From Candidatus Roizmanbacteria bacterium (GTDB taxonomy: Bacteria; Patescibacteriota; Microgenomatia; UBA1406; GWC2-37-13): DNA of 64,000 nt. Where the stretch lies: assembly GCA_016215445.1 (NCBI GenBank), contig JACRJL010000001.1:1-64000 (forward strand), given 5' to 3'. The position numbers and the translations under genes were made by a program. The first letter of the stretch is position 1. The number at the start of each line of letters is the position of its first letter. Of the stretch, positions 29,041-42,952 are shown piece after piece. Under the pieces are notes generated by a model that searched no databases, was not told where the DNA came from, and saw only the letters and a list, made by a program, of their open reading frames with translations.

Positions 29041-29063
29041 CCCCGCCGAAAGGCGGGGTTTTT
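29041..29063 (+). terminator. Rho-independent terminator after leader ORF 1
   Basis: CCCCGCC (29041-29047), loop GAAA, GGCGGGG (29052-29058), then TTTTT. The stem is 7 GC-rich pairs with a GNRA-type loop. The same terminator occurs at 29465-29487. Confidence 0.9.
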
Positions 29064-29448: not shown

Positions 29449-29472
29449 ATTTATACTTAACCGACCCCGCCG
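29424..29472 (+). promoter_or_regulatory. Antiterminator pairing of leader 2
   Basis: CGGCGGGGT (29424-29432, inside the leader ORF) is a perfect 9-nt complement of ACCCCGCCG (29464-29472, the 5' arm of the terminator). It can also form a local hairpin ACGGC/GCCGT. A ribosome stalled on the Tyr codons would leave this segment free; a ribosome at the stop codon would cover it. Confidence 0.6.
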
Positions 29473-29487
29473 AAAGGCGGGGTTTTT
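29465..29487 (+). terminator. Rho-independent terminator after leader ORF 2
   Basis: CCCCGCC (29465-29471), loop GAAA, GGCGGGG (29476-29482), then TTTTT. Identical in stem and loop to the terminator at 29041-29058. Confidence 0.9.
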
Positions 29488-40510: not shown

Positions 40511-41545
40511 TTACTTACGACTCTTTAATACTTTATCAACAATATCAGTCAAACTGACTATTCCCATCGTCTTTTTATGGTCATCGTGGACAACAGCAAG
40601 ATAAACTTCCTTTTGTTTCATCCTGACCATGAGTTTTTCTGCAGTTTCATCTTCATGAATATATAAGACCTTTCTTAAGAAGTTTCCTTTGGCTAGAGAA
40701 ATTTCATTATTTTCTGATCGAAAAAGATCGGTAATATGGAAAAAACCCACTATATTGTCGAGTGTTTTTTTATAGACTGGGTAACGATTGTAAGTCATTC
40801 CTAGCTTTGCTATTTTATTTTTTACCTGTTTAAGTGTGGATTTATTTTCAAAAGCAATCAGTTTATCTATTGGAATCATAATCGTGTCGACCTTAATTTT
40901 TTTTAATTTAAAAACGTTGTAGGCCATCTCCATCTCGGTTGTCGAAATCTCTCCGACTTTGCCGCTATGGCTCAAAATCATTTTTATCTCCTCTTCAGAA
41001 TATGGACGGTCGTGAAAAACATTTTTTATCCCTAAAAGGGAAATGATTTTGTAGGTTGTCATATTGACGAGCCAGGTTAAAGGCCAGAAAAGACCGACAA
41101 AGACAAAAAGGGGCGGAATGACCCAAAGGCTGTATTTTTCCGGTTTTCGAAGGGTCAAAGTCTTTGGAAGCAGTTCCCCAAAAACCAGTTGGAAATAGGT
41201 AAGGATTAAAAATGAAATTAATGATAGGGGGCCGACAAGTTGGGGAAACCAAACCGCCTGTCTGACAAAAATTGGCAACAACGACTCTAGAAATTTCTCA
41301 AGCCAAGGAGAGCCAATTAAACCCAAGGCAATACTTGTAACTGTTACTCCTACCTGAATCGTTGGCAGGAATATTTTTAGGTGTTTTATAGCGAATTTGA
41401 CGAGTCTTGCCCGCCTCCGGCCTGCTTTTACCCACTCTGATATCTTAGTTTTCCTGACAGAAATAAGAACAATTTCGCAGACAACAAAATAAGCATTAAG
41501 ACTAATCAGCAGAGTTGTCCAAATTAAAGCTTCGGATATTCTCAT
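40511..41545 (-). CDS. CNNM/CorC-HlyC family membrane protein (DUF21 plus CBS pair)
   Basis: The protein has 344 residues. DUF21 membrane domain with three or four helices (about 1-145: NAYFVVCEIVLISVRKTKI, FGELLPKTLTLRKPEKYS), then a CBS pair (about 205-340: VDTIMIPIDKLIAFENK, YNRYPVYKKTLDNIVGFFHI, KTMGIVSLTDIVDKVL). Family members are linked to Mg2+/Co2+ handling. The usual C-terminal CorC_HlyC domain is missing. Confidence 0.9.
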   Translation of the reverse strand: MRISEALIWTTLLISLNAYFVVCEIVLISVRKTKISEWVKAGRRRARLVKFAIKHLKIFLPTIQVGVTVTSIALGLIGSPWLEKFLESLLPIFVRQAVWFPQLVGPLSLISFLILTYFQLVFGELLPKTLTLRKPEKYSLWVIPPLFVFVGLFWPLTWLVNMTTYKIISLLGIKNVFHDRPYSEEEIKMILSHSGKVGEISTTEMEMAYNVFKLKKIKVDTIMIPIDKLIAFENKSTLKQVKNKIAKLGMTYNRYPVYKKTLDNIVGFFHITDLFRSENNEISLAKGNFLRKVLYIHEDETAEKLMVRMKQKEVYLAVVHDDHKKTMGIVSLTDIVDKVLKSRK

Positions 41546-41601: not shown

Positions 41602-41646
41602 TTGTGAGTCCGTCGGGACTCGAACCCGAAACCAATAGCTTAAAAG
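41602..41646. repeat. 45-bp direct repeat, left copy
   Basis: Identical to 41953-41997; the two copies are 351 bp apart and bracket the GIY-YIG ORF like attachment sites. Confidence 0.92.
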
Positions 41647-41674
41647 TCCGCCTACGGCGGATCTACCAGTTGAG
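41602..41674 (-). pseudogene. Broken tRNA-Lys copy
   Basis: The first 45 bp (41602-41646) are identical to the 3' half of the intact tRNA-Lys (41953-41997). The anticodon stem side is then replaced by the palindrome TCCGCC-TAC-GGCGGA (41647-41661). A 13-bp D-arm remnant CTACCAGTTGAG follows, and the acceptor 5' strand is missing, so it cannot fold as a tRNA. It forms the 3' flank of the GIY-YIG ORF, whose stop codon lies inside it. Confidence 0.85.
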
Positions 41675-41951
41675 ATTTAATAATCCATTCTTTTAGATTT
41701 TTATGGACAAAACTTCTTCCAATACCGCTTTTTAGCCATTTTTCTCTTTTTATTGCTTCTTTTCTATTAATATATGATTCTCTATATATTAGTGACCACA
41801 ACCCTTTATTTTTACTTGTAAAAGAAGATTTTTTTGAAGGTAAATATTTATTATGTCGAAGTAATCTTATAGTCAAATTATTTGTATATCCGATGTAGAT
41901 TTTATTGCCAATCTTGTTATATAAAACGTAAACAAAGAAGTTATTTTCCAC
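41652..41951 (-). CDS. GIY-YIG nuclease-like ORF between two tRNA-Lys copies
   Basis: The protein has 99 residues and starts with GTG. VYVLYNKIGNKIYIGYTNNL is the GIY-YIG core (here VYV...IYIGYT), followed by RLLRHNK and the conserved SFTSKNKGLWSLIYRESY and EAIKREKWLKSGIGR region of the UvrC/URI-type single-domain nucleases. It begins 4 nt after the intact tRNA-Lys and its last codons (SQLVDPP) read into the broken tRNA copy. Such small GIY-YIG genes are common in CPR genomes and may be homing or DNA-repair nucleases; substrate unknown. Confidence 0.85.
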   Translation of the reverse strand: MENNFFVYVLYNKIGNKIYIGYTNNLTIRLLRHNKYLPSKKSSFTSKNKGLWSLIYRESYINRKEAIKREKWLKSGIGRSFVHKNLKEWIIKSQLVDPP

Positions 41952-41952
41952 T

Positions 41953-41997
41953 TTGTGAGTCCGTCGGGACTCGAACCCGAAACCAATAGCTTAAAAG
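41953..41997. repeat. 45-bp direct repeat, right copy
   Basis: Inside the intact tRNA-Lys gene (3' half up to the anticodon loop). Identical to 41602-41646. Confidence 0.92.
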
Positions 41998-42028
41998 GCT
42001 ACTGCTCTACCAGTTGAGCTACGGACCC
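41956..42028 (-). tRNA. tRNA-Lys (UUU)
   Basis: 73 nt. Acceptor stem GGGTCCG pairs with CGGACTC, D arm GCTC...GAGC, anticodon stem GTAGC/GCTAT with loop CTTTTAA giving anticodon TTT, and T arm TCGGG-TTCGAGT-CCCGA. The discriminator is A and CCA is not encoded. All arms pair. Only tRNA in the window. Confidence 0.95.
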
Positions 42029-42136
42029 TTTATATAAAACCTTCAAGTTTCCAAATAGCTTTAAATAAGCTATTGATTCTTGATTTAAGAATTAAATTTT
42101 ATCAATCCAGAGGTTATTTAGCAAGCTTATTAGTTA

Positions 42137-42952
42137 TTAGTCTCTATTTTGCCCCGGAGCGTTTTCACTGTGACCGGGAAGATCAGGCGTTGGTGTATTG
42201 TTTTGAGAAGTGGTCGGAGTCGGTGGTTGAGTTGGTACGGATGTAGGAGGGACTATGATTTCGGTCGTCGGAGTTGGAGTAACAGTAGGTTGGATAGTGC
42301 TGTCCTGAAGTTGGATTTGGTTCATATCATTGATGGTCTCCTGGATAGTTGCCTGGGTTTCATCGATTTGATTAGATATTGAAGCGGATTGAGTTTGGGT
42401 AATCAGTGGGGGAGTCGGCGTCGGATATGTATTTTCCGGTTGGTTTTGAGGTGTTTGAGTGGCTGGTGGAGAGTAAGAATTGGTTCCAGTGTTTGTTGTT
42501 GGAGCATTATAGACATATTGGGGTTGATTGCCAATAGGTCTACTGACAATTTTTTGTTTTTCGTTGGCTAGACCTGAAGAGATAGAGCTTAGTTGGGCGA
42601 CGTATTTAGCTGCTGCCTCTTTTCTTTCCACTGGGTCCTTGATGTTAGTTATTGTTTCTGCGGTTTCAACTACTTGACCATCCAGCCTTTCCAGACTCTC
42701 GGTACCGTATTTAGAGGCTAGGACTTTGGTGACTTCATCGAAGCGCCTGGCGACAAAGTTGATCTGGAAGTCAACCTGTTTATATAACACTGAACTTGAA
42801 GCGATCAAAATCTTTTCCGCAGCCAATTTTGCTCCATAAAGCTTGTCTCCGGGGAGAGAGTCTTTGGTGACGTAAAAAAGCGATGAGTAGCCGAAAAAGA
42901 CAAAAAAAATCACCCACACTCCGTAATCAATGATTTTTTTGACTATAGTCAT
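42137..42952 (-). CDS. DUF5667-domain membrane protein with Pro/Thr-rich exported tail
   Basis: The protein has 271 residues. One N-terminal membrane helix (about 10-28) is followed by the DUF5667 pattern (KDSLPGDKLYGAKLAAEKIL, then helical repeats with FVARRFDEVTKVLASKYG). The C-terminal 120 residues are Thr/Pro/Gln-rich and disordered (TPTPPLITQTQS, PTVTPTPTTEI), ending GHSENAPGQNRD. Similar proteins sit at the cell surface of many uncultured bacteria, sometimes next to sigma factors; none is seen here. It has a leaderless promoter and is divergent from the transporter operon. Confidence 0.75.
   Translation of the reverse strand: MTIVKKIIDYGVWVIFFVFFGYSSLFYVTKDSLPGDKLYGAKLAAEKILIASSSVLYKQVDFQINFVARRFDEVTKVLASKYGTESLERLDGQVVETAETITNIKDPVERKEAAAKYVAQLSSISSGLANEKQKIVSRPIGNQPQYVYNAPTTNTGTNSYSPPATQTPQNQPENTYPTPTPPLITQTQSASISNQIDETQATIQETINDMNQIQLQDSTIQPTVTPTPTTEIIVPPTSVPTQPPTPTTSQNNTPTPDLPGHSENAPGQNRD

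Follow-up and report, generated by a model that had tools for sequence, protein, structure and literature searches.

A putative family of minimal, homing-type GIY-YIG elements with palindrome-split tRNA copies at tRNA genes of Patescibacteria

Described systems with related features

Both halves of the arrangement reported here have precedents: tRNA cutting with amplification in SegB, and gene-end duplication in the mobile ORFs of fungal mitochondria. SegB of phages T4 and T6 is a free-standing GIY-YIG homing endonuclease located among tRNA genes of many isotypes; it cuts inside tRNA genes and drives the tandem amplification of a segment with tRNA and nuclease (PMC13096335). The elements from Patescibacteria (CPR) described below share with it the free-standing GIY-YIG gene, the tRNA linkage and the tandem amplification (here at loci L040, L190 and L267). 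SegB, in contrast, is encoded by phages, the motif RAWTSGAAC that it recognises corresponds in our own reading to the T-loop consensus whereas the D or anticodon arm is affected here, and the consulted passages report neither a palindrome nor a partial tRNA copy (PMC13096335). No close sequence relation to SegB emerged from comparisons with PHROGs, which gave weak homing-endonuclease matches, and with 50,697 phage records, which gave one weak match. A phage origin was likewise unsupported, the signs of it being a single viral contig and this one weak match.

In these fungal systems (Allomyces atp6; Glomus atp6, atp9, cox2 and nad3), as in the CPR elements, an endonuclease ORF sits in an essential gene, the end of the gene is duplicated, which leaves one complete gene, and the displaced end is found beyond the insert (PMC3630166). 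The fungal systems differ in that they involve protein genes and other nuclease families (LAGLIDADG in Glomus atp6), and the consulted part of the source mentions no palindrome inside the displaced copy. The new, intact gene end is foreign in fungi according to the same part, whereas here the two copies match the local tRNA exactly, and pairs of elements at different isotypes suggest duplication of the target.

By sequence, the closest solved structures are GIY-YIG proteins of the UPF0213/YazA type (PDB 1zg2 and 1ywl; E ~1e-5), which are single-domain, similar in size to the element ORF and annotated as hypothetical. To our knowledge, no tRNA linkage has been noted for them. Small GIY-YIG genes may also occur near tRNA or rRNA genes in Bacteroidota. 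In REP/RAYT and palindromic MITE systems, palindromic repeats are tied to a small DNA-cleaving enzyme and dispersed copies exist without it. The RAYT enzymes are Y1 tyrosine transposases, whereas the CPR elements combine a GIY-YIG nuclease with tRNA-gene targeting, and no Y1 transposase was found in the element, whose sole protein is the GIY-YIG one. The searchable literature, outside subscription papers and preprints, gave no bacterial description of such elements; chromosomal, CPR-wide tRNA-targeting GIY-YIG ORFs with palindrome-split tRNA copies seem to be undescribed. We file them with the free-standing homing endonucleases, as presumed homing elements.

The tRNA-Lys locus

The window is the whole 64-kb stretch of DNA that was analysed; it belongs to a 0.94 Mb genome in three contigs with 46 tRNAs. 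ARAGORN calls a single tRNA in it, tRNA-Lys(ttt). On the minus strand, the intact tRNA-Lys(UUU) (42028-41955; Rfam RF00005, 72 bits) is followed after 3 bases by a free-standing, single-domain GIY-YIG nuclease ORF (41951-41652; Pfam PF01541, E=8.2e-12) and then by a broken tRNA-Lys copy. The preliminary description had reported a 45-nt direct repeat bracketing this ORF, and the repeat is indeed exact: tRNA positions 32-74 plus 2 nt recur with 100% identity, on the minus strand, at 41953-41997 in the intact tRNA and at 41602-41646 in the broken one, the copies being spaced 351 bp apart. It was also right about a GTG start, which lies 3 nt past the tRNA end, and about a stop inside the broken copy. 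That copy is more than the 3' half of the tRNA: besides the exact positions 32-74 it has a D-arm remnant, positions 11-23 (41662-41674, minus strand, 13/13 identical), and an overlooked perfect palindrome, TCCGCCGTAGGCGGA (TCCGCC-GTA-GGCGGA, 41647-41661), that replaces positions 24-31 in the anticodon arm. The TAG stop of the ORF lies within the palindrome, so that tRNA remnant and palindrome together supply the codons for the C-terminal residues SQLVDPP. The remnant, earlier taken as the trace of a once-full tRNA, is real, but it is part of a recurring architecture and does not reflect decay alone.

A sister element in another genus (L108) carries TCCGCCAGCTGGCGGA at the same tRNA position as the window palindrome. 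Judged by the ORF of the element, the nearest named relatives of the genome (L158, L159, L171 and L181) are Candidatus Roizmanbacteria, which belong to the Microgenomates group within Patescibacteria/CPR. The window tRNA-Lys has no second close match in its genome, the next best being 85% identical. When 190 distinct ORFs are pooled, the intact tRNA lies downstream in 81 (form A) and upstream in 24 (form B, the window type); the window layout is thus the rarer form, and its mirror image (5' fragment, ORF, intact tRNA) is the commonest.

Several further features surround the locus. An AT-rich palindrome (42054-42074), absent in relatives and weakly similar (11/12) to tRNA positions 33-44, lies between a -10-like TGATAAAAT (42096-42104) and tRNA-Lys; it may be what is left of an earlier insertion at the opposite side of the tRNA. 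The -10-like TGATAAAAT is found about 10-25 nt before tRNA-Lys in relatives and about 68 nt before it in the window (42029-42104). The gene directly 3' of tRNA-Lys(UUU) differs between species of the genus, being CNNM-like, cation-efflux-like or EamA-like (40511-41545 in the window; L128, L130, L131), which suggests a gene-exchange hotspot at this flank. Elsewhere in the window, the palindrome CCGCCGAAAGGCGG is present twice, at 29043-29056 and 29467-29480, 424 bp apart.

Linkage with tRNA genes and empty sites

Seven PF01541 matches were identified in the source genome, one in a 431-aa frame and six in small free-standing ORFs. Five of these six have a same-strand tRNA (Asp, Asn, Phe, Ser or Lys) no more than 150 bp away; the probability of five in six falling within 150 bp of 46 tRNAs is P ~3.7e-8, smaller still when strand is counted, and chance is therefore excluded. 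The tRNA-Phe locus is built like the window, with an intact tRNA-Phe, an ATG immediately after it, the ORF, positions 19-29, the palindrome TCCTCCGAATCGGAGGA and positions 43 to the end. PF01541 matches were present in 56 of 57 genomes, with 0-16 matches per genome (UvrC-type matches included in both counts). Among relatives, 55 of the 117 distinct free-standing GIY-YIG ORFs at fetched loci are located at most 200 bp from a tRNA, all 55 codirectional with it, and the adjoining tRNAs span most isotypes. A GTDB scan with a tRNA-associated clade returned 80 loci from many CPR lineages, 52 of which lie at most 250 bp from a tRNA (51 of the 52 on the same strand) compared to 22 of 819 random windows; this set describes spread and not an unbiased rate, because the query clade was picked from tRNA-associated members. 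No tRNA linkage was seen at loci with a clear non-CPR name (Acidobacteria, Cloacimonadota, Omnitrophota, Deltaproteobacteria and others), bar one 'PVC group' record.

Empty sites, which the preliminary description had proposed to seek, are present in relatives, and the arrangement recurs at other tRNAs, so that the proposal withstood the refuting condition which that description had set. In four species of the same genus (G004, G005, G017 and G019), tRNA-Lys is 97-100% identical to that of the window and has neither the ORF nor a second copy; G004 and G019 retain both the upstream gene of the window (42137-42952) and the downstream HD-type gene. The tRNA-Asp site is more precise. The tRNA-Asp of G017 and G004 is 100% identical to that of G000, both sites are empty, and the promoter regions (95% identity to G000 in G017, 87% in G004) align up to tRNA position 13; the insert in G000 is 307 bp long and lies between the copies of a 15-bp direct duplication, AAGGAGTCATAGCTC. 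Exact boundaries are given by tRNA-Asp only, because the 3' flank of relatives is unalignable at form-B loci such as the window. Synteny of the CNNM gene as an anchor yielded distant paralogues only, with no tRNA beside them, and the tRNA itself is the better anchor.

An old tandem duplication of the tRNA, followed by decay of one copy and with a GIY-YIG gene lying between the two as a chance passenger, would account for a broken copy that closely matches the intact one and is decayed at its 5' end. It leaves unexplained the single, ORF-free and nearly identical tRNA-Lys of the four congeneric species, the recurrence of the arrangement at many isotypes with invariable codirectionality in relatives (55/55), and the splitting of otherwise exact tRNA segments by palindromes. 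We regard this explanation as highly improbable, and a plain tandem duplication as ruled out by the empty sites and the recurrence. Insertion at tRNA genes is well supported, and this part of the earlier proposal of a minimal mobile unit stands; cleavage and homing by the nuclease are inferred.

At three loci (L043, L142 and L149), tRNA-Arg(tcg) and tRNA-Lys(ctt) are a few bases apart, and at four others (L012, L021, L024 and L156) an ORF lies between them. At L141:1422-1500, a 3' fragment of a different tRNA-Arg is located between tRNA-Arg(tcg) and tRNA-Lys(ctt), which suggests that a foreign tRNA-Arg has taken the place of the resident one. In L043 (1113-1188, minus strand; a Gottesmanbacteria genome), a tRNA with the anticodon CTA, called tRNA-Pyl by ARAGORN, adjoins tRNA-Gly and a GIY-YIG element and is a candidate amber suppressor tRNA.

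Element anatomy, proposed mechanism and significance

Form-A loci follow the order of host tRNA promoter, tRNA positions 1 to ~19, palindrome, positions ~20-31, ORF and intact tRNA, and the ORF stop codon often overlaps the tRNA 5' end. A recognisable upstream tRNA fragment was found at 49 of the 81 form-A loci, 39 of them starting exactly at tRNA position 1. At 26 loci, two exact tRNA segments are split by an insert and mostly abut (1-18/19-29, 1-20/21-32, 1-11/12-23); here the palindrome is located in the D-loop (20 loci), the anticodon arm (5) or the T arm (1). It replaces 8-13 nt of the tRNA at L004, L006 and L108, and elsewhere is a plain insertion into a complete portion. Palindromes just upstream of form-A ORFs occur at 46 loci versus 12 expected, with no excess 600 bp away.

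The preliminary description had pointed to tRNA 3' ends as integration sites, which does not hold here, as most target sites are in the 5' D arm. tRNA genes are common targets of group I introns and integrases alike, and group I introns can contain GIY-YIG proteins. However, Rfam showed only tRNA and no intron at the searched element sites, and the insert of ~300 bp holds the GIY-YIG ORF only and no recombinase gene. With the D-arm position of the targets, these results leave an intron or integrase-type insertion with a negligible probability, and both the group I intron and the integrase island were rejected.

Tandem arrays were found at several loci. At L040 (G023), at least 12 identical 357-bp units, each with the ORF and a palindrome-split 5' fragment of tRNA-Ser, stand at a contig end, where an assembly loop is possible; at L190 and L267 the tandem units differ in sequence, one L267 unit retaining the ORF tail only. 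A single tRNA-Glu in L042 has ORFs on both sides, and L248 and L256 contain palindrome-split tRNA copies without an ORF.

The last two loci bear on a view in which two parasites act independently, MITE-like palindromes entering the loops of redundant tRNA copies and GIY-YIG genes homing near tRNAs separately. One palindrome family, CCCGCCCGCAACGCCTGAGC...GCTTGCGATGGCGGGCGGG, turns up in different CPR lineages and in either orientation and is also found away from GIY-YIG ORFs and tRNAs, and palindromes reach up to 12 copies in one genome; they could thus be mobile repeats of their own that insert into tRNA copies without function. Against independence, the palindrome position agrees with the ORF clade at 38 of 39 loci, although the anticodon-arm cases represent three clades and the agreement is weaker than it appears; the ORF tail kept in L267 indicates that copies without an ORF can be deletion derivatives; and in the pair L002/L081 palindrome and ORF are jointly homologous while the tRNA fragment differs. 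We consider two independent parasites unlikely.

The pair L002/L081 is also the clearest case (L213 versus L174 being another) in which the tRNA fragment matches the local tRNA although the remainder is homologous, and the tRNA piece is therefore more likely a duplication of the target than element cargo, judging from these alignments. The earlier idea that the element carries tRNA sequence with it is thus unproven, and an element moving its own tRNA piece between isotypes was unsupported by cross-isotype alignments. Nearest ORF neighbours share the tRNA isotype in 36 of 105 cases versus 11.7 expected, which could partly reflect vertical descent; close relatives are also found at different isotypes (Asp/Val, 81% identity; Lys/Thr, 77%).

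The catalytic residues Y, Y, R, H and E are kept in 189-190 of 190 ORFs (the glutamate in 188/188) and pairwise dN/dS values are 0.02-0.19; the nuclease is therefore under strong purifying selection. Such selection would also be expected of a domesticated repair or regulatory nuclease co-expressed in tRNA operons, for example in cruciform resolution or in sensing attack on tRNAs, and the codirectional ORFs near tRNA ends, with stops overlapping the tRNA 5' end, would suit this host function. A selfish element better explains why presence is patchy, why isotype and copy number vary, and why arrays and precise empty sites exist, and named defence systems gave no match beyond weak domain hits, on which grounds a defence system was rejected. 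A host function appears quite improbable to us.

We favour, with reasonable though not high confidence, the reading that places the window locus in a family of homing-type minimal elements of Patescibacteria (CPR) that target tRNA genes, break the D or anticodon arm and duplicate part of the tRNA. Each unit combines a partial tRNA copy, whose D-loop or anticodon arm carries a GC-rich palindrome, with one GIY-YIG ORF of 80-100 aa codirectional with the tRNA, and an intact tRNA remains at one end. A broader proposition, whose truth we judge to be evenly poised, is that previously undescribed elements of ~300-350 bp insert CPR-wide with their palindrome at tRNA loops, duplicate part of the tRNA so that one gene stays intact, and multiply into tandem arrays through self-cutting and repair, the MITE-like palindromes being their non-autonomous partners.

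In the proposed mechanism, the nuclease would break the conserved D arm of a tRNA gene; in three clades the target would be the anticodon arm. An element-bearing locus would serve as the repair template, so that palindrome and ORF are copied and part of the tRNA is duplicated, and selection would keep only outcomes that leave one intact, essential tRNA. The palindrome would both mark and destroy the cut site in the broken copy. If the intact neighbour were cut again, its 5' end could pair with the upstream repeat and an extra unit would be copied, giving a tandem array as in the amplification driven by phage SegB. The element is probably driven by the tRNA's own promoter, and the tRNA would be released by RNase P/Z. 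Several findings count against the homing-type reading, among them the palindromes located away from ORFs and tRNAs: the intact tRNA still has the presumed cut site, leaving self-immunity unaccounted for; the tRNA duplications begin at the 5' end and end variably, unlike a fixed target-site duplication; and 24 related ORFs form a clade without any member close to a tRNA.

Large mobile elements are considered scarce in the streamlined genomes of the CPR. With GIY-YIG genes in nearly every searched relative, many wedged in tRNA genes, tRNA loci would be a main battleground there. At ~300-350 bp, the element appears to rank among the smallest known genetic parasites that encode a protein, and a DNA parasite whose sole protein has 80 aa would be near the lower size limit for autonomy. 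The elements suggest that bacterial chromosomes, too, harbour GIY-YIG nucleases that target tRNA genes and amplify in tandem, as known from phage SegB. The hairpin-split tRNA copies provide a direct record, readable from sequence, of where the nuclease may cut. Caution is advised in tRNA annotation, as palindrome-bearing pseudo-tRNAs can be miscalled; the one in L096 was called tRNA-Asn(att).

Many members of the clade never near tRNAs adjoin REP-like palindromes, TGTCATCCCG... (L041, L045, L106, L107, L111 and L112), and L041 contains a 462-bp tandem duplication of ORF and palindromes. This clade is possibly a GIY-YIG counterpart of RAYT/REP, and its palindromes hint that the link between GIY-YIG ORF and palindrome is older than the link with tRNA. 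In another GIY-YIG clade, represented in several genera (L001, L014, L027, L029, L030 and L037), tRNA-Gln is located 0.5-1.3 kb upstream of the ORF, with other sequence between them.
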